Shown one piece after another: positions 21,187-33,123 of a DNA stretch of 64,000 nucleotides (position 1 is the stretch's first letter; every line of letters begins with the position of its first letter). The position numbers and the translations under genes were made by a program. Below the pieces are notes generated by a model. That model was not told the DNA's origin. It saw only the letters and a list, made by a program, of their open reading frames with translations, and searched no databases. This DNA comes from Candidatus Zixiibacteriota bacterium (GTDB lineage: Bacteria; Zixibacteria; MSB-5A5; GN15; FEB-12). The DNA is taken from contig JANQPI010000026.1 in NCBI GenBank assembly GCA_028289585.1, positions 310,001-374,000 of the forward strand, written 5' to 3'.

Positions 21187-22932
21187 ATGGGCGCGAAGAC
21201 GCGTTCTCATCGATGGGTACTGGCTGACAGTCCGTCGGCCGAGCTACTCAATGACCTGCAAGCTGCTACTAGCCTGCCCACGACAATTCTCCGGATTCTT
21301 ATTAACCGGTCTCTCGACAACCCCGAGGCTGTTCAGTCGTTTCTCAATCCCGATCTGGCCAATCTCAAAGATCCATTCGCCCTGAAAGGCATGACGGCCG
21401 GTATCGAACGGGTTACCGAGGCGTTGATGGCCAACGAACAGATCATGATCTATGGGGATTATGACGTCGACGGTATCACCGCCACGACGCTCCTCTATCT
21501 CGTTTTGAACAAGCTCGGTGCTCGGGTCTCGTACTATCTGCCGAACCGCCTGGCCGAGGGGTACGGGCTCTCAACCGATGGCATTGATGCGGCTGCCGAA
21601 AAGGGCGTGACACTGATTGTGACCGTCGATACCGGAATTACCGCTGTCGACGAGGTTGAGTACGCGCGCACCAAAGGGATTGATGTTGTTGTTACCGATC
21701 ACCACGAACCCGCCGAGCAGGTCCCCAACGCGGCAGCAATTATCGACCACAAGCAGCCGGGCTGTGACTACGGGGGTGAGTTGGCGGGCGTCGGGGTAGC
21801 GTTCAAGTTTTCGCAGGCGCTCTATCAGCGGTTGCAGCAGCCGGAGTCGGAACTGTATGAGCATCTTGACCTCGTCGCTCTCGGAACCTCCGCCGATATC
21901 GTTCCGCTGACCGGCGAGAATCGGATTCTGACGAAATTCGGCATTCCCCAGATCTCCCGAACGACCAAACCGGGGCTTAAGTCGCTGACGTTCGTCTCCG
22001 GCCTGATGGGTAAGGAGATCGGAACCGGCCAGGTCGTGTTCATTCTCGCCCCACGGATCAATGCGCTCGGTCGCCTCGGTGAGGCTGATCACGCGATTCG
22101 TTTGCTGGCTACTCGCGACGAAGCATCGGCACAGCAGATTGCCCGAACTCTTGAGGAGAAGAACAAGGAACGCAAGGAGATCGATGAGAAGACGCTCCAC
22201 GAAGCGTTGGCGCAAGTCGAGGAACTCGTCGACCTCGAGAAGGATAAGGCGATTGTGCTCGCCGGTGAGGGTTGGCATCTCGGCGTGATCGGTATTGTCG
22301 CATCCCGTCTGGTCGAGCGTTTCCATCTGCCGACGATCATGATTTCTACGTCCGACGGTGAGGGGAAAGGGTCGGCCCGGTCGATTCCCGGATTTCACCT
22401 CTGTGAGGCGCTTAAGGAGTGCGAGCCGCTGCTCGAACGCTACGGCGGCCATAAGTATGCGGCGGGTCTGTCGATTAAGACCGAAAACATTGAGGCGTTC
22501 CGCCGTGAGTTCAAAGAGGTCTCACAGCGCAATCTGACTGTCGAAGACATTCAACCGAAGTTGCATATCGATGCGGAGATTGAACTCGATGCGATCGACG
22601 AGAAGTTCATGGACCTGCTTGAGTCGTTCGCTCCGTTCGGACCTCAGAACATGCGACCGGTCTTTCTGACCCGCAATGTCGAGGTGGTCGGCCAGCCGTA
22701 TCAGGTCGGCAGCAATCACCTCAAGATGCGTGTTCGCAAAGGTCAGCGCATTTTCGATGTGATTGGCTTTGGCTTTGGTGATATGGTTGCCCAGATTGCT
22801 GACAAAGGCTGTCTGGTCGATCTCGTGTACGTTGCCGAGTACAATCATTTCAACAATCAGACCCGGATGCAGTTGCGGTTGCGCGATATCAAACTCACGA
22901 TCGGGTCTCTCACAACCGGATACGCAACGTGA
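21187..22932 (+). CDS. recJ: Single-stranded-DNA-specific exonuclease RecJ
   Basis: A 581-residue DHH-family 5'-3' exonuclease used in recombination and mismatch repair. The metal motifs are YGDYDVDGITATTLLY near residue 89, TVDTGITAVDEV, the DHH triad VVTDHHEPAE with D171, and in the DHHA1 domain GEGWHLGVIGIVASRLVE and GSARSIPGFHLCEAL with RYGGHKYAAGL. The C-terminal OB-like domain is present. The ATG at 21187 has GAAGGAGG upstream. Its TGA overlaps the meaB GTG, linking it to the propionyl-CoA gene run, an arrangement more likely positional than functional. Confidence 0.95.
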   Translation: MGAKTRSHRWVLADSPSAELLNDLQAATSLPTTILRILINRSLDNPEAVQSFLNPDLANLKDPFALKGMTAGIERVTEALMANEQIMIYGDYDVDGITATTLLYLVLNKLGARVSYYLPNRLAEGYGLSTDGIDAAAEKGVTLIVTVDTGITAVDEVEYARTKGIDVVVTDHHEPAEQVPNAAAIIDHKQPGCDYGGELAGVGVAFKFSQALYQRLQQPESELYEHLDLVALGTSADIVPLTGENRILTKFGIPQISRTTKPGLKSLTFVSGLMGKEIGTGQVVFILAPRINALGRLGEADHAIRLLATRDEASAQQIARTLEEKNKERKEIDEKTLHEALAQVEELVDLEKDKAIVLAGEGWHLGVIGIVASRLVERFHLPTIMISTSDGEGKGSARSIPGFHLCEALKECEPLLERYGGHKYAAGLSIKTENIEAFRREFKEVSQRNLTVEDIQPKLHIDAEIELDAIDEKFMDLLESFAPFGPQNMRPVFLTRNVEVVGQPYQVGSNHLKMRVRKGQRIFDVIGFGFGDMVAQIADKGCLVDLVYVAEYNHFNNQTRMQLRLRDIKLTIGSLTTGYAT

Positions 22933-23903
22933 CTTCGCTGCTGACACGGTTTCAGTCGGGTGACCGGCGTGCTCTCGCACGCATCATCTCGCATATCGAA
23001 GATGGCAGCCCCCGTACGCCCGCACTGATGGGTCAGCTTTATCCCGGTGGCGGCAAGGCGCTGCGAATCGGCATTACCGGCCCCCCGGGAGCCGGCAAGT
23101 CGACACTCGTCAATGGTCTCGCCAAGCTGCTTCGCGATGCTGGCAATCGTATTGGCATCATCGCCGTTGATCCAACATCGCCGTTTACCGGGGGAGCGTT
23201 GTTGGGTGATCGGGTTCGCATGAATGAGTTCGAACCCGACGGAACGGTTTTCTTCCGCTCGATGGCGACCCGAGGTGCTCGCGGTGGTTTAGCCACTGCG
23301 ACCGGCGATGTGGCAGTCGCGCTTTCATCGTTCGGTTTTGACATCACACTGATAGAAACGGTCGGTGTCGGTCAGGTCGAACTCGACGTTGTCGATGCCT
23401 GCGACGTGGTCGTTGTCGTACTGGTGCCGGAGTCCGGCGACTCGGTGCAAACAATGAAGGCGGGACTGATGGAGATCGGCGATGTCTTCTGCGTGAATAA
23501 GTCCGATCGACCGGGAGCCGAACGAATCGTTGCTGACCTCAAACTGACGCTCGACACGCGCAAACGAGTCGACGACGCCTGGCGTCCACCAATTGTGTCG
23601 ACGTCAGCGCAGACAAACACTGGCCTCGACAAGCTGTATGCGGCGATCTTCTCGTATCTTGATTTCGCTCGGGAGTCCGGGTGGTTCGAGACACACCGTC
23701 GCGAGCAGGCGAAGAAGACAGTAGTCACCCTCCTCAAGCAGCGTTTCGAGCGTGAGTTTGTTGAGCGATTGCGTTCGGCCGGAGAGTTTGACTCGGCGGT
23801 GGCCGCGATTCTTGAGGGGAAGACCGATCCGTATCGGGTTGGTGATGAGCTCTACGAGCGATTTACCACCGGGCGGGAGTCCGTTCCCCAGTCGCGTGTG
23901 TGA
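22929..23903 (+). CDS. meaB: MeaB/ArgK-type GTPase, methylmalonyl-CoA mutase chaperone
   Basis: A 324-residue G3E P-loop GTPase that gates loading and protects the cobalamin cofactor of methylmalonyl-CoA mutase. Walker A is GPPGAGKST near residues 51-59, preceded by LRIGIT. Other marks are VDPTSPFTGGALLGDRVRM, the switch block MATRGARGGLA, IETVGVGQVELDVVD and the base-recognition motif NKSD near residue 190. It sits directly upstream of both mutase subunits, which matches its role. The GTG start overlaps the recJ stop by four bases. Confidence 0.95.
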   Translation: MTSLLTRFQSGDRRALARIISHIEDGSPRTPALMGQLYPGGGKALRIGITGPPGAGKSTLVNGLAKLLRDAGNRIGIIAVDPTSPFTGGALLGDRVRMNEFEPDGTVFFRSMATRGARGGLATATGDVAVALSSFGFDITLIETVGVGQVELDVVDACDVVVVVLVPESGDSVQTMKAGLMEIGDVFCVNKSDRPGAERIVADLKLTLDTRKRVDDAWRPPIVSTSAQTNTGLDKLYAAIFSYLDFARESGWFETHRREQAKKTVVTLLKQRFEREFVERLRSAGEFDSAVAAILEGKTDPYRVGDELYERFTTGRESVPQSRV

Positions 23904-24014: not shown

Positions 24015-25715
24015 ATGTACAACTCGGATAATCTGAACGAGCTGAACAAGCGTCTGAAGACGTGGGATGAAACGGCTACCCGGTTCCGCGGGAAGGCATG
24101 GCGTCCAAAGATGATGACCGTGTCGTCGCGCGAAATCAACGAGCTGTATACGCCGCTCGACGTTGCCCAGGACGGGAATGACTCGCAGCGCTTCTGGGAA
24201 GAAATTGGTCTCCCGGGAGAGTTTCCGTATACGCGCGGTATTCACCACACGATGTATCGCACCAAGCCGTGGACGATCCGTCAGTTTGCCGGCATGGGCA
24301 CTCCCGCCGAGACGAACCAGCGCTTCAAGTATATCCTCGAGCAGGGGGGGACCGGTCTTTCGACCGCGTTCGACCTGCCGACCTTGATGGGCTACGACTC
24401 CGATTCCCCGAACTCGCTCGGCGAGGTTGGTAAGTGCGGAGTCGCGGTCGATACGCTTGCCGATATGGAAACGATTTTCGACGGCATCGATCTGGCCGAG
24501 GTGTCGGTATCGATGACGATCAACTCGCCGGCGTCGATGATTATGGCGATGTACCTCGTCGTTGCGGAGAAGAAGGGGATTCCGTTCGATAAGCTTCGTG
24601 GCACGTTGCAGAACGACATTCTCAAAGAATACATCGCGCAAAAGGAATATATTTACCCGCCGGTACCGTCGGTTCGCCTGATCATCGACATGATCGAGTA
24701 CTGTACCGACCACGTTCCGCAGTGGAACACGGTGTCGGTGTCGGGCTATCATATCCGCGAGGCCGGATCGACGGCCGCGCAGGAGTTGGCGTATACATTG
24801 GCCGATGGGTTCGCCTATATCGAAGCGGCGATTGACCGCGGTATCGATGTCGACCAGTTCGCGCCGCGCATCTCGTTCTTCTTCAACTCGCACTCCGATT
24901 TCTTCGAGGAGATCGCCAAGTTCCGTGCCGCGCGACGGATCTTCGCCAAGCGGATGCGTGACAAGTACGGTGCGAAGAATCCGAAGAGCTGGCTGCTGCG
25001 GTTCCACACGCAGACAGCCGGGTGTTCCCTGACCGCGCAGCAGCCGGAGAACAACATCGTCCGCACCGCGATTCAGGCGCTCGCCGGAGTACTGGGTGGC
25101 ACACAGTCGCTGCATACGAACTCGATGGATGAAACGCTGGCGTTGCCGTCGGAAAAGGCGGCGCTCATTGCGCTGCGCACGCAGCAGGTGATCATGCATG
25201 AGACGGGCGTGACTAACACGGTTGACCCGCTCGGTGGCTCGTACTTCATCGAAGCGCTGACCAACGAGATGGAGCGCGAGGCCGAGGAGATCTTTGCCGA
25301 AATCGACGAACGCGGTGGTGTGATTCCGGCAATCGAGGAGGGCTATTTCCAGCGTGAAATCGCCCGCGCCGCGTACCGCCATCAGAACGAACTCGAATCG
25401 GGTGAGCGGATTATCGTCGGTGTGAATGACTTCGTGATCGAAGACGAAAAGATCGAAATTCCGGTGCTCAAGATCGATGCTTCGACCGAGCGCGAGCAGG
25501 TTGCCTCGCTGCACGAGATCAAGCAGCGTCGCAACGCCGGTGAGGTTGAGGTGATGCTCGACAAGTTGCGTCAGGCGGCGGCGACCGACGGCAACACGTT
25601 CGCAGCGATGGTCGACTGTGCGCGGGCGTACTGTACGCTTCAGGAGATGTGCGACGCGCTTCGTCAGGTCTGGGGCGAGTGGTCCGAATCTCCACACGTC
25701 ATGCAGGTGTCGTAG
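24015..25715 (+). CDS. mcmA1: Methylmalonyl-CoA mutase, large (catalytic) subunit
   Basis: A 566-residue catalytic TIM-barrel subunit without its own B12 domain; the B12 subunit is encoded at 26361. It interconverts (R)-methylmalonyl-CoA and succinyl-CoA. Conserved blocks include [20 protein letters not shown] near residue 75, [61 protein letters not shown]-type [32 protein letters not shown] and [13 protein letters not shown]. The upstream chaperone and downstream epimerase and carboxylase support methylmalonyl-CoA as the substrate, rather than isobutyryl-CoA. Confidence 0.95.
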
Positions 25716-25719
25716 GACT

Positions 25720-26340
25720 GTGGCAGCTACCGACTTCGCAATTACTGACAAAACGATCAGAGTCACCCAACTGTCTGTGGCCGGGCTCGCATTTGACGGT
25801 TCAGCATTGTGGTTCTACTCCGCGGACGAGCAAAAGCACGTGCGTATCGACTTCGACGGCAAGATCCTCCAGGAGATCGAAACGAAGAACTGCGGCTGTG
25901 ACACGGAATTCGACGGCAAACTAATCTGGCAGGCGCGACCGAAAGATAACAAGATAGTCAAAGTCGACCCCGAACAGGGGCAGATGGTCGACTATATCGA
26001 CCTGCCGGACACACCGTCGGGACTTGCCACCGACGGCTACAACTGGTATCGCGGCTCGCACAGTCGTAAGGGGATAATCCGCTTCGATCCGGAATCGGGC
26101 GCCGACCTGGAAGTGTTCGAGACACCGCAAACGACATCGGGTATCGCTGACGACGGTCAGTATCTCTGGCACGGGGCTAACGACGACGGTCACAAGCTGT
26201 TCAAGTTCGATCCGGAGCTGAAAGAACTCGCTGGTGAGTTTGACCTGCCGTTCAGGGTTCACGGGGTGACGTATGACGGCAGCGACCTGTTGGTGGTCAA
26301 TGGTGACGCCAACGAAATCGTACGAATCGCGATCGATTAG
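25720..26340 (+). CDS. Beta-propeller-like protein between the two mutase subunits
   Basis: A 206-residue protein without signal peptide. It is made of about five repeats of 35-45 residues, each with a variant of G(L/I)A.DG..LW/Y followed by [60 protein letters not shown] and [13 protein letters not shown]. This resembles glutaminyl cyclase-like and SMP-30/NHL propellers, but is too short for a full six-blade ring unless it dimerises. It starts with GTG four bases after the large mutase subunit and ends 20 bases before the B12 subunit, so coexpression with the enzyme is nearly certain. Function unknown. Confidence 0.7.
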
Positions 26341-26360
26341 GGGATGAGAGAGACACGGAA

Positions 26361-26786
26361 ATGACGACCGAACGAAAGATACGCGTCCTATTGGCCAAGC
26401 CGGGACTCGACGGCCACGACCGGGGAATCAAAGTGATCGCGGCGGCATTTCGCGACGCCGGATTCGAGGTGATCTATACGGGCCTTCGACAAACACCGGC
26501 GATGATTGTCGACGCCGCCATTCAGGAAGATGTCGATGCGATCGGTGTGTCGATTCTTTCCGGTGCGCACATGACTCTCTTCCCGGCTATCCTCGATGAG
26601 TTGAAAGCGAAAGATGCCTCGGACATTCTGCTCTTCGGCGGCGGGATTATCCCCGACGACGACAAGGATGAACTCGAGAAGCGCGGGGTCGCACGCGTCT
26701 TTACTCCCGGCGCCCCGACCGAGGAAGCGATTGGCTTCCTCCGTGATGCGGTCGCCCGCAAGAAGACCGACGAAACGTTGATGTAG
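26361..26786 (+). CDS. mcmA2: Methylmalonyl-CoA mutase, cobalamin-binding subunit
   Basis: A 141-residue B12-binding domain. The DxHxxG signature is GLDGHDRG with H19 as the lower cobalt ligand; SILSGAHM and the nucleotide-loop binding block [12 protein letters not shown] complete the Rossmann-like domain. In single-chain mutases this domain is the C-terminus; here it is a separate polypeptide that must join the 566-residue subunit. The ATG is preceded by a purine-rich GATGAGAGAGA stretch. The gene lies in the same run as meaB, the carboxylase and the epimerase. Confidence 0.95.
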
Positions 26787-26858: not shown

Positions 26859-28085
26859 GTGGAAGCAACCCTGACCCAGGAACAGAAAGAGATTATCCAG
26901 CGGACGATCGAAGCGCAGGAGAAGCGTGCGCGGACGCCGTGGAATGTGCATCCCAAACAACAGGCGGTCCGCGAGGAAGTACGGGCGTTTGCTACCGAGC
27001 ATTTCCATCACCAGTCGGAGTACTGGGATCGCCTCGAGGGTGAGCGGAAGTTTCCGTATGACCTCTACCGGTTGATGGGCCGCGAAGGATTTATTGCCTA
27101 CGCGATGCCGCCGGAGTGGGGTGGACTGGGTAAGTCGCACCTTGAGTACATCACGCTCACCGAGGAACTCTGCTACCACGACGCCGCGTTTGGTCTGCTC
27201 TGTAACGTTGGTGAGCTGGCGATTACGCCGGTTTTGAAGTTTGGGTCGGAAGAACTTAAAGCGAAGTACCTTCCCCAGACCGTCAAGGGCGACAAAGTGA
27301 TCGCTTTCTGCCTGACCGAACCGGATGCCGGTTCGGATGCGGCGAATCAGGGGACGACTGCGGTCGAGGATCCGGCGACTGGCGACTACCTGATCACGGG
27401 CGAGAAGATCTTCATCATGCACGGTGACGTCGCTGAAATTGGCGTGGTCTTCTGCAAGATCGAAGGTAAGCCGAAAGTGTCAGCGTTTGTTGTCGAGACG
27501 AACCAGGAAGGTTGGAAGGCGCGGACCCTTGGTCACAAGATGGGCATGCGTGCCGCGACGACCGGGGCGGTGTCGATGACCAATGTTCGCGTGCCGAAAG
27601 AGAATCTGATCGGTGAGTACGGTCGCGGCTTCCGCTACGCGCTGTCGACCCTCGATTCCGCTCGTGTTGGGGTAGCGGCGCAGGGGATCGGTGTCGCCCA
27701 GCGGGCGCTCGATGAGGCGATTGCGTTCGCCAAGCGCCGCCGGACATTCGGTCAGCCGATTGCCAAGTTTCAGGCGATTCAGTGGAAGATTGCCGACATG
27801 TCGACCCGTGTCGAAGCGGCCCGTTGCCTGACGTACAAAGCGGCGCAGATGCAGGATGAGCCGGGGGTTGTCTATTCCCTGGAAGCGGCGCAGGCGAAAC
27901 TCTATTCGACCGAGACCGCGAACTTCTGTGTCAACGAAGCGATGCAGATCCACGGCGGCTACGGCTACATCGGTGAGTTCTCGCCGATCGAGAAGCTCTA
28001 CCGCGATCAGCGGGTTCTGGAGATTTACGAGGGGACGTCCGAGATTCAGCGATTGGTCATCGCCGGTCACGTTATCGGTCGATGA
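26859..28085 (+). CDS. Acyl-CoA dehydrogenase
   Basis: A 408-residue flavoprotein of the standard ACAD fold. Visible blocks are AYAMPPEWGGLGKSHLEY, the FAD/substrate loop AFCLTEPDAGSDAANQGT, GVSGFVVE-like VSAFVVETNQEG, the helical domain RRTFGQPIAKFQAIQWKIAD and the catalytic-base region LYRDQRVLEIYEGTSEIQR near the C-terminus. It passes electrons to ETF. Given the neighbours, a short or branched acyl-CoA that ends as propionyl-CoA is plausible, but the chain length is not readable. GTG start with GAAAGGAAGG upstream; the stop overlaps the MBL gene (ATGA). Confidence 0.93.
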   Translation: MEATLTQEQKEIIQRTIEAQEKRARTPWNVHPKQQAVREEVRAFATEHFHHQSEYWDRLEGERKFPYDLYRLMGREGFIAYAMPPEWGGLGKSHLEYITLTEELCYHDAAFGLLCNVGELAITPVLKFGSEELKAKYLPQTVKGDKVIAFCLTEPDAGSDAANQGTTAVEDPATGDYLITGEKIFIMHGDVAEIGVVFCKIEGKPKVSAFVVETNQEGWKARTLGHKMGMRAATTGAVSMTNVRVPKENLIGEYGRGFRYALSTLDSARVGVAAQGIGVAQRALDEAIAFAKRRRTFGQPIAKFQAIQWKIADMSTRVEAARCLTYKAAQMQDEPGVVYSLEAAQAKLYSTETANFCVNEAMQIHGGYGYIGEFSPIEKLYRDQRVLEIYEGTSEIQRLVIAGHVIGR

Positions 28086-28942
28086 GAATCGGTCAGTTTC
28101 GCATCCGGTCGTTCGTCGAGCAGGAGTTTCGGCTCGACGGCGGCCTGATGTGGGGAGTCGTTCCCAAGACGCTCTGGCAGCGCTACTCGCCCGCGGACGA
28201 CAACAATCTCATTCGGATGGTGAACAACATCTTCCTGTTGGAAGCGCACGGCAAGAGGGTGCTGTTCGACATTGGTCTCGGCGACACGCTGTCCGAGAAA
28301 GAGCGCAAGGTCTACGGTACCGACGGCGCCAGCTCGCTCGATCGCGGGTTGGCGTCGTTTGGGTTAACCCCAACCGATATCGATCTCGTTGTTCTCACCC
28401 ATTTGCATACGGACCACGCTGCGGGAGCGGTTGCGCTTAGTGAAAAAAATCACTATGTTCCGCGGTACTCTAACGCTACCTACGTGGTGGCGAAACGGGA
28501 ATGGGAGGCCGCGGTGAATCCGGACGAACGGACACGGGCGGTCTATATCCCGAATCGGTTGTATCCTCTCCGGGAGGCGGGGCAGTTGGAGCTGATCGAC
28601 GGGTCAACGGAGTTGTTGCCGGGAGTGAACGCGGTTCACACCGGCGGGCATTCGGTGGGGCATTTCGCGCTGGAGATGGAATCGGACGACCAGCGGCTCT
28701 TTTACTACGCCGATATCTTTCCTTCGCACAATCATATGCGGGTACCGTACGTACCGGCGACCGACGTGCTGCCGATGGAGTCGATGGCGGTCAAACGCGC
28801 GGTGCTGCCGCGACTGTACGATCCGAATACTATCCTTGCCTTCGATCATGATATTGCGTTCCCGTTCGGCCGGGTGACCGAACGCGACGGTAAGCCGGTC
28901 GTTACACGTGTTGACGATCCGGAGACACAGGTAGGTGACTAA
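28082..28942 (+). CDS. Metallo-beta-lactamase-fold hydrolase
   Basis: A 286-residue cytosolic MBL-fold protein. The metal motif HLHTDHAAG is near residue 105, a further His is in [11 protein letters not shown] near residue 180, an Asp is in YYADIFPS, and the last His is in AFDHDIAFP near residue 258, so a dinuclear site is intact. The family includes lactonases, thioesterases and quinolone-signal-type hydrolases. Its place between an acyl-CoA dehydrogenase and the propionyl-CoA carboxylase suggests a thioesterase or lactonase role in that pathway, which is inference. It overlaps both neighbours (ATGA upstream, TAATG downstream). Confidence 0.85.
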
Positions 28943-30492
28943 TGTCCATTAACGAACGATTGCAGGAACTCGAAGAGATGCGTGAGACCGCCAAGCTCGG
29001 CGGTGGTGAAGCGCGCATTGAGGCTCAACACAAGAAGGGGAAACTGACGGCCCGCGAGCGTATTGAACTGCTGGTCGACCCTAACTCCTTCGAAGAGTTC
29101 GACATGTTTGTCACGCATCGCTCGCATGATTTCGGACTTGAGAAACAGAAGTTTCTCGGCGACGGTGTCGTGACGGGTGCGGCCAAGATCAATGGTCGGC
29201 CGGTCTTTCTCTTTTCACAGGACTTTACGGTTCTGGGCGGATCACTTTCGGAGACACACTCGGAGAAGATCTGCAAGGTGATGGATATGGCGATGAAAGT
29301 TGGCGCGCCGGTAATCGGTCTCAACGATTCGGGTGGAGCCCGTATCCAGGAAGGTGTCGTTTCACTTGGCGCCTACGCGGATATCTTTCTCCGCAATACG
29401 CTGGCCTCGGGCGTCGTTCCGCAGATTTCTCTGGTTCTTGGTCCCTGTGCGGGCGGAGCGGTCTATTCGCCGGCGATTACCGATTTCGTACTCATGACCA
29501 AGCAGACAAGCTACATGTTTGTTACCGGCCCGAACGTCGTGAAGACGGTTACGCACGAAGACGTTACCTCCGAAGAACTCGGTGGTGCCGATACGCATGC
29601 GACGAAGTCAGGTGTATCCCACTTTGCCTGTGAGAATGAGGCGGATGTCATTACGAAGACAAAGCGTCTGCTGGAATTCCTGCCGCAGAACAACTGTGAA
29701 GATCCGCCGTTTGTTGAGTCGACCGACCCAATCGATCGTGAAGATGAAGCGCTCAACTCGATCGTGCCGGATAACCCGAATCAGCCGTACGATATCAAAG
29801 AAGTTATCGAGATGGTGGCCGACACCGGAACGTTCCTTGAGGTCCATGCCGACTTCGCACCGAATATCGTTGTTGGCTTTGTCCGACTGGGTGGACGGTC
29901 GGTCGGTATCGTTGCGAATCAACCGGCAGTGCTGGCAGGCGTGCTCGACATCAATTCCTCGATCAAGGGAGCTCGGTTTGTTCGGTTCTGCGATGCGTTC
30001 AACATTCCGATTCTGACGTTTGAAGATGTCCCCGGGTTCCTTCCCGGAGTCGACCAGGAACACAACGGTATCATCCGCAACGGTGCCAAACTGTTGTATG
30101 CCTACTGTGAGGCAACCGTCCCGAAGATTACGGTCATTACGCGCAAGGCGTACGGTGGCGCGTATGACGTTATGAACTCCAAGCATATTCGGGGTGATGT
30201 CAACTACGCGTGGCCGTCGGCCGAGATCGCCGTTATGGGCCCCAAAGGCGCGGTGGAGATTATTTTCCGTAAGGAGATTTCCGTCGCTGAGGATCTCGCC
30301 GCGGCGACCGATGCGAAGACCGAGGAGTATCGTCAGAAGTTTGCCAATCCCTATATCGCTGCGGCGCGCGGCTACCTGGACGATATCATTGAACCGAAGA
30401 CGACGCGTGGTCGCCTGATTCGAGCCTTTGAGATGATCGAATCGAAAAAGGACAGCAATCCGCCCAAGAAGCACGGGAACATTCCGCTCTAA
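28942..30492 (+). CDS. pccB: Propionyl-CoA/acyl-CoA carboxylase, carboxyltransferase subunit
   Basis: A 516-residue carboxyltransferase beta subunit that moves CO2 from carboxybiotin to acyl-CoA. Two crotonase-like halves are clear: [18 protein letters not shown] and [17 protein letters not shown] with [18 protein letters not shown] in the N-half, and [40 protein letters not shown] and [16 protein letters not shown] in the C-half. The neighbouring mutase and epimerase make propionyl-CoA the likely substrate. ATG shares a base with the previous stop. The C-terminus ([10 protein letters not shown]) is the usual family ending. Confidence 0.95.
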
Positions 30493-30548
30493 GCACTCAC
30501 GTTCAGTGGAAGTGCAAACTGAGTTGGGAATGAAGGGAGTGTACAGAG

Positions 30549-32093
30549 ATGGCAGATGAGCCACGTACGATAAAGAAGATCTTGATCGCGAATCGCGGTG
30601 AAATCGCGGTGCGCGTGATGCGAGCCTGTCGGGACCTCGGCATTCAGTCGGTTGCTGTCTTCTCGGAAGCCGATAGCGCCGCCTACCATGTCCGTATGGC
30701 TGATGAAGCCTATCCGATCGGTCCGGCACCGTCCAACAAGAGCTACCTGGTAATGGAGAATGTCATCGAGGCGGCCAAACTATCCGGTGCCGATGCTGTT
30801 CATCCGGGCTATGGGTTTCTTTCCGAAAACGCGAGTTTCGCCCGGCGCTGCGAGGAGGAGGGGATCATCTTCATTGGTCCCAAGCCGGATACGATAACGG
30901 CCTTGGGCGACAAAGTCGAAGCGCGCCGTCTGGCGATCGATGCCGGGCTGCCGGTGGTGCCAGGGACGGAGCTGACGGATAACGACCCGAAAGCGGCACT
31001 CGACTTTGCCACGGAGATTGGCTTCCCGGTCCTGATCAAGGCGGCCGCCGGCGGTGGTGGTAAAGGGATGCGGGTTGTTGAGTCTCCCGAACTGTTCGAA
31101 GAGTCGTTGCAGTCGGCATCGAACGAAGCGCTGAACGCGTTTGGTAATGGTACGGTTTTTGTCGAGAAGTATCTGCTCAAGCCGCGGCACGTTGAAATCC
31201 AGATTATGGCCGACCACCACGGCAATGTCGTTCACCTCAACGAACGTGAATGTTCGATTCAACGTCGCCACCAGAAGGTGATTGAGGAATCACCGTCGCC
31301 GATCATGACTCCGGAACTGCGCGAACGGATGGGTAACGCGGCGATCGCTATCGCGAAGAAAGCGGGTTACGTAAACGCCGGGACCTGCGAGTTTCTCGTC
31401 GACCAGAACCTTGATTTCTACTTCCTGGAGGTCAACACCCGGCTTCAGGTGGAGCATCCGGTGACAGAAATGATTACCGGCCTCGACCTCGTACGCGAAC
31501 AGATCTGGATCGCCGAGGGGCGGGAGATGCGGATCAAGCAGGAAGATGTTGGTGTCCACGGTCACGCCCTTGAATGTCGAATCTATGCGGAGGACCCGGA
31601 AGAGGGCTTCGCTCCATCGACCGGGCGCCTCAAGCATTATCGCCTGCCCCAGGGACCCGGCGTACGGGTCGACTCGGGCGTCGTGATCTTTTCCGAGATT
31701 CCGATCTACTATGATCCGATGATCGCCAAACTTGCCGTGTGGGGGCGGACCCGCGAGGAAGCGATTGCGCGCACGCAGCGCGCCTTGCAGGAGTACCGCA
31801 TCTCCGGCGTTAAAACGACGATCGGCTTCCATCGCGTTGTGCTCGATCACCCGAAGTTCATCGAAGGCGATATGTCGACTGGTTTTCTGGGTGAACACTA
31901 TCCGGACAACAACTACCGCGTGAAAGATCCGGAAACGGCGGAAATGGCCGCGATCGGTGTTGCCATTGACAAATTCGTGCGCGACCGCAAGGTGCTGGTT
32001 TCACCTGATGGTCAGCCACAGTTCCGCTCCGTTCGATGGAAAGACTATCATCGTCGGGCCAAACTCACGACGACGTTTGGAGGGAATAAGTAA
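30549..32093 (+). CDS. Acyl-CoA carboxylase, biotin carboxylase subunit
   Basis: A 514-residue ATP-grasp enzyme that carboxylates biotin with bicarbonate and ATP. The N-terminal IKKILIANRGEIAVRVMRAC, the glycine-rich loop AAAGGGGKGMRVVES near residue 165, ECSIQRRHQKVIEESPSP, and FLEVNTRLQVEHPVTEM with the catalytic residues are all intact. It is longer than AccC of E. coli by about 65 residues at the C-terminus, a common feature of acyl-CoA carboxylase alpha chains that interact with the carboxyltransferase. The biotin carrier is a separate protein at 32093, whose ATG overlaps this stop. Confidence 0.95.
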   Translation: MADEPRTIKKILIANRGEIAVRVMRACRDLGIQSVAVFSEADSAAYHVRMADEAYPIGPAPSNKSYLVMENVIEAAKLSGADAVHPGYGFLSENASFARRCEEEGIIFIGPKPDTITALGDKVEARRLAIDAGLPVVPGTELTDNDPKAALDFATEIGFPVLIKAAAGGGGKGMRVVESPELFEESLQSASNEALNAFGNGTVFVEKYLLKPRHVEIQIMADHHGNVVHLNERECSIQRRHQKVIEESPSPIMTPELRERMGNAAIAIAKKAGYVNAGTCEFLVDQNLDFYFLEVNTRLQVEHPVTEMITGLDLVREQIWIAEGREMRIKQEDVGVHGHALECRIYAEDPEEGFAPSTGRLKHYRLPQGPGVRVDSGVVIFSEIPIYYDPMIAKLAVWGRTREEAIARTQRALQEYRISGVKTTIGFHRVVLDHPKFIEGDMSTGFLGEHYPDNNYRVKDPETAEMAAIGVAIDKFVRDRKVLVSPDGQPQFRSVRWKDYHRRAKLTTTFGGNK

Positions 32094-32617
32094 TGGCTCG
32101 CTATACGGTTACGGTTCAGGAGAGAGACTTCGATATCGAAGTTGGCTATCAGGACGGTGAGTTGGTCGCGACGATCAACGGTGAACCGCGCGAAATCACC
32201 GCTCATTCCCTGGGATCGCATCAGTTTGGCGATAACCGATTCCTGCTCTTGGTGAACAATCGAGCCTCCGAGGTCGATGTTCGCCACGAATCACAGAACG
32301 ACCGGGTGGTGCTCATTCACGGTATGGAAGTCGCTGTCACTATCGAAGACTTCGCTCTCCACGAAATGCGCAAGAAAGCGGGCATTACTGCGGGAGCGGC
32401 AGTCGAGAAGACACTCAAAGCGCCGATGCCGGGTCTGATTGTGGCGACCAAAGTTGAGCCCGGCCAGACGGTCAAAAAGGGCGATCCGCTCCTCGTGGTT
32501 GAGGCGATGAAGATGGAGAACATCATCAAGGCGAAGGGGGACGTCACCGTCAAGGCGATCCGCGTGCAGGTCGGCCAGTCCGTAGAGAAGAACGCCGCCC
32601 TCATTGACTTCGAATGA
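32093..32617 (+). CDS. Biotin carboxyl carrier protein of the acyl-CoA carboxylase
   Basis: A 174-residue protein. The last 75 residues are a biotinyl domain with LKAPMPGLIVATKVEPGQ and the biotin site VVEAMKMEN, where K140 would be biotinylated. The first 95 residues form a small beta-rich region also seen in decarboxylase/propionyl-CoA carboxylase carriers and probably act in subunit assembly (BT-like). This split alpha chain, with carboxylase and carrier on two genes, mirrors the split mutase next door. It overlaps both neighbours by one to four bases. Confidence 0.94.
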   Translation: MARYTVTVQERDFDIEVGYQDGELVATINGEPREITAHSLGSHQFGDNRFLLLVNNRASEVDVRHESQNDRVVLIHGMEVAVTIEDFALHEMRKKAGITAGAAVEKTLKAPMPGLIVATKVEPGQTVKKGDPLLVVEAMKMENIIKAKGDVTVKAIRVQVGQSVEKNAALIDFE

Positions 32618-33123
32618 CGATAGTGCATGCAGTCCAAGGTGGAGCGGCGGTAGCTGTCCTGAGTGCTCTTGTCGTTGCCTGTTCGAGTCAGCCTGATTCG
32701 ACCAACGGGGAAGCACTGTCAGATCTTGAAATGATTCAGGCGACTCTCGACGAAGCGGCCACGAGGCTTCTCCACAATGACAAAGCCGTGCTCTACGACA
32801 TGGAATTTGAGTACTACACCGACGAGTTTTCGTTCGATGTCTACCGAACGGCGCCGTTGATCCGCGGAGTGATCTCCGACTCTATCGTCAAGATGGAAGT
32901 TCTGGAGGCCGAGTTCTTTGAGGGTGATTCGGCGCTGGTGTCGATTATGCGCCACAAACTGGAGCGCGACGGATCTGTTGGACAGAGTATCGTGTCCCGC
33001 ACCATGTACAAGCATCATGGCCGATGGATTGCGCCAACGCTCACCACGATCGATGAACAGCTTCAGTATGAGGCGGTCAGAGATGCTGCGATCAAGGCCG
33101 CTGAGGAAGAGGAACCGTTATAG
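32614..33123 (+). CDS. Putative lipoprotein in the propionyl-CoA gene run
   Basis: A 169-residue protein with a lipoprotein signal peptide: a hydrophobic stretch AAVAVLSALVVA followed by the lipobox cysteine C23 (VVACSS). The mature part has alternating aromatic and charged segments (EFEYYTDEFSFDVYRT, YKHHGRWIAPTLTTIDEQ) that fit a small NTF2-like or cystatin-like domain, but I do not recognise a family. The ATG overlaps the biotin carrier stop, and the epimerase follows two bases later, so it is embedded in the metabolic operon despite its envelope location. Function unknown. Confidence 0.75.
   Translation: MTIVHAVQGGAAVAVLSALVVACSSQPDSTNGEALSDLEMIQATLDEAATRLLHNDKAVLYDMEFEYYTDEFSFDVYRTAPLIRGVISDSIVKMEVLEAEFFEGDSALVSIMRHKLERDGSVGQSIVSRTMYKHHGRWIAPTLTTIDEQLQYEAVRDAAIKAAEEEEPL

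Follow-up and report, generated by a model that had tools for sequence, protein, structure and literature searches.

The operon and the gene between the mutase subunits

The window, which is the whole stretch of 64,000 nucleotides analysed here, belongs to a 3.15-Mb draft genome of Candidatus Zixiibacteriota (G000) and carries a propionate operon (mcm-pcc), read from the forward strand. The gene for MeaB, the GTPase chaperone associated with methylmalonyl-CoA mutase (22929–23903; PF03308, 290.3 bits), lies 111 bases upstream of mcmL, which encodes the large, catalytic subunit of the mutase (24015–25715; PF01642, 746.8 bits). The B12-binding subunit is encoded at 26361–26786 (PF02310, 96.2 bits). 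The remainder of the operon (26859–32617) has a gene order common to relatives: an acyl-CoA dehydrogenase and a metallo-beta-lactamase-fold protein, both run against Pfam, are followed by genes that appear, from their sequences, to encode a carboxyltransferase, a biotin carboxylase, and a biotin carrier.

Between the two mutase subunits lies a gene, here called PROP (25720–26340), with a GTG start, 206 codons, and a TAG stop. It begins 4 bases after the end of mcmL at 25715 and ends 20 bases before the start of the B12-binding subunit at 26361. Both this arrangement and the position of meaB upstream had been described in the initial annotation, and they are borne out by the frame and by the Pfam assignments of its neighbours. 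Further upstream, the frame remains open as far as a GTG at 25618; alignment with the starts of orthologues favours 25720 instead. These orthologues, of 206 and 207 amino acids, occur in two other genomes (G003 and G075, matching the ‘Candidatus Zixiibacteriota’ contigs JAJRSF010000024.1 and JAJRQO010000029.1), start at the corresponding place, and are 37–38% identical to the PROP of the window.

PROP is a real coding gene and not a chance frame, as follows from these orthologues together with the pattern of substitution between G003 and G075. For this one pair, dN is 0.185 and dS 2.08 (near saturation), giving a dN/dS of about 0.09, and differences at codon positions 1, 2, and 3 number 41, 28, and 105. 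The gene is thus under strong purifying selection between these two genomes. The idea that PROP is a recent foreign insert was rejected: in G000 its base composition (GC 0.560, GC3 0.705) matches that of its neighbours in the window, and the other two copies have a GC of 0.40. A scan for promoters and terminators between 23800 and 27000, which is uninformative for this phylum, found none.

Several other features of the operon deserve mention. At 32614–33123 (forward strand), the window encodes a 169-amino-acid protein that reads as lipoprotein-like and has no Pfam match. This gene is kept in the operon of many relatives (26–40% identity), just before a methylmalonyl-CoA epimerase-like gene, and is a better-kept uncharacterised member of the operon than PROP. 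Most family genomes carry a second mutase large-subunit gene (53–58% identical) between the biotin carrier and lipoprotein-like genes. The window has none at this place (32614–32617), and on another contig G000 has a mutase-type frame of the single-chain form, about 717 amino acids long. In G031, the large mutase subunit is split over two frames (L067:3500-5193), reflecting either a true frame shift or an assembly error.

Fold and relation to glutaminyl cyclases

Pfam searches with PROP return only sub-threshold propeller matches (best SGL, E 2e-4), and a sequence search of solved structures gives nothing strong. AlphaFold2, run with the three aligned sequences, predicts 20 strands arranged as five four-stranded blades (mean pLDDT 88.6, pTM 0.85), in agreement with the beta-propeller call made from the sequence. 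Judging from strand order, the N-terminal strand probably closes the last blade. When the model was ranked against solved structures with VIA-align, five entries representing four glutaminyl cyclases came first (Z 22.8–24.2), the best being the papaya enzyme (Z 24.2). The E. coli protein YjiK was sixth (Z 21.3), and NHL domains were next (Z 17.1). PMC3986218 describes type I glutaminyl cyclases as having a five-bladed propeller fold. A description of the PROP gene was sought in the literature searched, including passages of PMC3986218 and PMC5241404, and none was found.

This likeness raises the possibility that PROP is itself a working type I glutaminyl cyclase. The cyclases stand clearly ahead of other folds in the structural comparison (Z 24 versus 17), and relatives of PROP are annotated as glutamine cyclotransferases, two of them exceeding the PF05096 cut-off with 38 and 43 bits. 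Against this, PROP scores 11.6 bits (E 0.18), below the gathering cut-off of 22.3 bits, shares only 9–15% identity with the solved enzymes, and has no signal peptide by reading. The catalytic Glu of the enzymes would correspond to Cys60 by blade register or to Ser100 in the HMMER alignment. PROP is therefore not filed as a glutaminyl cyclase, given the score under the cut-off and the apparent replacement of the catalytic Glu, and we regard cyclase activity as highly improbable.

Foldseek also matches PROP to the Bacteroides B12-binding propellers 8bn0 and 8bmy, with TM scores of 0.57–0.60 by query. A role as a B12-binding propeller was rejected, as the glutaminyl cyclases reach 0.84–0.85 and the lower values are common to many unrelated propellers.

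Relatives in Proteobacteria and among secreted proteins

The best sequence relatives of PROP outside its phylum are proteobacterial. A tblastn search matched 74 plasmid records, the matches listed being from Alpha- and Betaproteobacteria, and identity reached 33% over 89% of PROP. Sixteen of the 74 proteobacterial plasmid records were examined (L148–L163). Every one of them has, directly upstream of the propeller gene, a gene some 406 codons long (with the match split between frames in three), and mcm is beside the propeller in none. The upstream gene has a weak C-terminal helix-turn-helix (HTH) match in the two cases tested. A DUF899 gene is found near the propeller in 13 records, mostly in divergent orientation. 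These plasmids of Alpha- and Betaproteobacteria display a conserved module, in which a DUF899 gene lies near the HTH gene of about 406 codons and a five-bladed-propeller-type gene comes directly after the HTH gene. The literature searched held no paper with both ‘DUF899’ and ‘glutamine cyclotransferase’.

A second group of relatives is found within Zixiibacteriota. These are secreted proteins of about 540 amino acids, whose N-terminal propeller is matched by a three-sequence PROP profile with E values down to 4e-24 and whose second domain is a putative transglutaminase. In an alignment, 24 columns are identical among the three PROPs and in no fewer than 15 of the 16 proteobacterial sequences. 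Six residues, Thr62, Gln71, Ser100, Gly112, Asp123, and His151, are invariant across all 19 of these sequences (3/3 and 16/16), and none of the six is the consensus residue among 10 proteins of the propeller-transglutaminase type. A tree likewise places PROP and the proteobacterial propellers together against the propeller-transglutaminase type (100/98), with long branches flagged, and the kinship itself is drawn from about 30% identity in a repeat protein. Because of this grouping, a recent truncation of a propeller-transglutaminase-type protein was rejected as the origin of PROP.

By its sequence, PROP thus appears to have the characters of the HTH-linked family of stand-alone propellers, without the HTH gene upstream. 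The HTH gene of the proteobacterial pair was not found in the three carriers of PROP or in three non-carriers, in a search made without a positive control. The comparison points to a small family of propellers that in Proteobacteria is associated with a helix-turn-helix regulator and DUF899, and the six residues conserved between phyla offer a direct route to its ligand.

Occurrence and history among Zixibacteria

The search for PROP, with one and then with two and three sequences, covered 61 relatives, the 54 genomes of the family, and 132 of the class, the last being every genome sampled from the phylum. It is carried by three of the 132 (G000, G003, and G075). In all three, it lies directly after mcmL, at distances of 4, 32, and 29 bases, respectively. 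The B12-binding subunit follows in G000 and G075, while a Schlafen-AlbA_2 gene intervenes in G003. A ten-sequence profile recovered the three known copies with E values of 1e-79 or better, and no copy was found away from the mcmL-B12 junction in the 132 genomes. Two strong or short-frame matches were examined as further stand-alone candidates and rejected: each proved to be a secreted protein of the propeller-transglutaminase type, and the one with a frame of 209 codons is broken. The remaining profile matches were judged by frame length alone, and most lie in long frames.

The junction could be read in 41 of the 54 family genomes; in the other 13, mcmL and the B12 gene are missing or lie on different contigs. 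PROP is absent from 38 of the 41 readable junctions, including that of G017, the nearest relative of G000 in the tree. It is also absent from G031 and G074, two of the four sampled members of the genus of G003 and G075, where the mcmL-B12 gaps are 42 and 40 bp between matched ends. Checked for conservation between the mcm subunits, as the initial annotation had proposed, the gene holds exactly the same place in a second genus but is absent from most close relatives, an absence that the annotation had named as counting against its reading. Found at 3 of 41 junctions and in 3 of 132 genomes, PROP does not stand beside mcm in most mutase-bearing relatives, as a conserved component of the mutase would.

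The history of the gene was considered in a tree of six operon proteins, which is not a species tree and has one deeper fork without support. Here, G003 and G075 are sisters (support 1.0) with G031 and G074 outside them, and G000 pairs with the PROP-less G017 (support 1.0). A tree of mcmL alone places G000 elsewhere, yet still apart from the other carriers. As the carriers are not sisters in the six-protein tree, there were either two insertions at the same junction or one gain followed by about eight losses. In a tree with other propellers, the three PROP copies group together as a clade (98/92). Between G000 and G003, the distance is 1.19 for PROP and 0.36 for mcmL; between G003 and G075, it is 0.40 and 0.076. 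Since the distance between G000 and G003 is no larger than the G003–G075 pair predicts, PROP may have been inherited from a common ancestor within the family. The gene is old at the mcmL-B12 junction.

The mcmL-B12 junction as an insertion hot spot

Across the family, the place taken by PROP (25716–26360, forward strand) is a hot spot for insertions. Counting a junction as occupied when more than 300 bp separate the genes (a threshold chosen in this analysis), the mcmL-B12 junction holds an insert in 7 of the 41 family genomes, and the inserts belong to four or more unrelated gene types. PROP occupies it in G000, G075, and G003, the last together with the Schlafen-AlbA_2 gene. TIR-like proteins are encoded there in G012, G034, and G022; those of G012 and G022 are 46% identical over 158 amino acids and match a PADLOC TIR effector model (E 2e-8 and 5e-5, respectively). 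In G061, the occupant is a Y1-type transposase. Outside the family, the contents of the gap include Schlafen-AlbA_2 (G103) and an Mrr-type enzyme (G123).

Other inner junctions of the operon are occupied less often: 2 of 38 between the B12-binding subunit and acyl-CoA dehydrogenase, 0 of 33 between the latter and the metallo-beta-lactamase-fold protein, 2 of 34 between that protein and the carboxyltransferase (one a TIR gene), and 3 of 30 between the carboxyltransferase and biotin carboxylase (HNH, Mrr, and DUF559). None is occupied further down. The nuo operon served as a control: its 12 junctions were read in 20 family genomes picked for their long contigs, and none of the 216 carries an insert. 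Fisher's exact test gives p = 1.7e-6 for 7/41 against 0/216 and 0.002 against the other inner junctions, values that are rough as related genomes are not independent.

The initial annotation had argued that insertion between two subunits of one complex implies selected coexpression. That argument is undercut by a junction that takes in unrelated genes (7/41 against 0/216 in nuo), and position between the subunits is for the same reason weak evidence for a mutase partner. A more general caution follows: a gene that separates the subunits of an enzyme is easily taken for a partner, yet the site into which it is wedged may gather unrelated genes.

Solitary, co-directional HNH, Mrr, DUF559, TIR, and Schlafen-AlbA_2 genes are present at several junctions of the mcm-pcc operon in different Zixiibacteriota (L063:5005-5952, L068:5125-6051, L071:5221-5799, L081:5888-6784, L111:4290-5555, and L114:3506-4525). 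The operon is thus a possible home for solitary defence genes, and, with its lone TIR, Mrr, HNH, and Schlafen genes, it may be of interest in searches for defence genes outside islands. PROP could be regarded as one more of them, as most other occupants of the inner junctions are nuclease, TIR, Schlafen, or transposase genes and PROP adjoins a Schlafen-AlbA_2 gene in G003. However, PADLOC gives PROP no match, it is without matches in phages or viral contigs, and its proteobacterial relatives sit with a regulator and DUF899 instead of defence genes. A defence role is accordingly judged very unlikely.

Of 27 family genomes, 13 have an insert in the gap between meaB and mcmL, frequently consisting of genes that read as membrane-protein and glycosyltransferase-like (for example, L069:11322-14195 and L097:16534-19418). 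In 8 of the 13, genes lie on the other strand, and the gap is therefore probably the front of the operon.

Coupling to the mutase and proposed function

If PROP acted with the mutase, its presence might have left traces in the subunits. In mcmL, there are seven positions at which G003 and G075 agree on a residue absent from both G031 and G074. G000 shares two of these, the non-carriers G010 and G039 share three, and five other non-carriers share two. The B12-binding subunit has zero such positions. No excess of common substitutions was thus found in mcmL or the B12-binding subunit of carriers, a weak test with three carriers, and coevolution of either subunit with PROP was rejected.

These results bear on the reading of PROP as a dispensable accessory of the mutase, which in some lineages would tune or protect the two-chain enzyme, for example by binding a pathway metabolite or a damaged cofactor. 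Its co-directional placement 4, 32, and 29 bases after mcmL in two genera, its confinement to this junction among the 132 genomes, and the low dN/dS between two carriers are all consistent with such a role. On the other hand, 38 of 41 readable junctions do without it, an unrelated gene parts it from the B12-binding subunit in G003, neither subunit has carrier-specific substitutions, and the proteobacterial relatives are beside an HTH gene and not mcm at all 16 loci. On balance, an accessory role is unlikely, though plausible. A bolder version, which we consider doubtful, makes PROP a subunit of the two-chain mutase that regulates or protects it in particular lineages: a ligand-gated propeller drawn from a regulator-linked sensor family and placed between the other subunits so as to be made with them. 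Were this true, function would explain why two lineages that are not sisters use one and the same junction.

The explanation that we favour, with slightly more confidence than doubt, is that PROP is a ligand-binding propeller lodged in a permissive operon junction and kept for its own function, being neither a subunit nor a required chaperone of the mutase. The protein would be a soluble, cytosolic five-bladed propeller with the glutaminyl cyclase fold, from a family about which little is known and which, in Proteobacteria, is encoded immediately after a helix-turn-helix regulator. A cytosolic location is suggested by the absence, by reading, of a signal peptide, and a putative ligand pocket by the residues common across families and by the regulator that regularly accompanies the proteobacterial propellers. 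Within Candidatus Zixiibacteriota, the gene would in one lineage have entered the permissive junction of the propionyl-CoA carboxylase/methylmalonyl-CoA mutase operon, oriented like the mutase genes, to be cotranscribed with them while acting independently of the enzyme. Purifying selection would then have retained it in a few lineages. Several findings count against this explanation. All three copies in the class are at one junction, although a gene with no tie to the mutase could be expected elsewhere as well, and the carriers are not sisters in the six-protein tree. The regulator partner of the proteobacterial relatives went undetected in the carriers, in a search that had no positive control, and kinship with those relatives draws on about 30% identity in a repeat protein.

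Comparison with described proteins

Type I glutaminyl cyclases (PF05096; PDB 2iwa, 3mbr, 3nol, and 3nok) have their fold in common with PROP and align along the whole chain. Unlike them, PROP has no secretion signal by reading, and the position of their catalytic Glu would, by the register, be taken by another residue. MeaB, the known chaperone of the mutase, occupies the same operon neighbourhood, but it is a GTPase, whereas PROP, a propeller, has no GTPase domain. The propeller-transglutaminase-type proteins have blades of the same repeat type as PROP and differ from it in their signal peptide (by reading), their fused second domain, and the six residues discussed above. The HTH-linked propellers of Proteobacteria, annotated as ‘PQQ-binding-like beta-propeller’ or ‘glutamine cyclotransferase’, resemble PROP in length (about 212 amino acids), in the absence of a signal peptide (by reading), in 25–33% identity along the chain, and in sharing the six residues. 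They follow a 406-amino-acid HTH gene, mostly with DUF899 nearby, whereas PROP follows mcmL.
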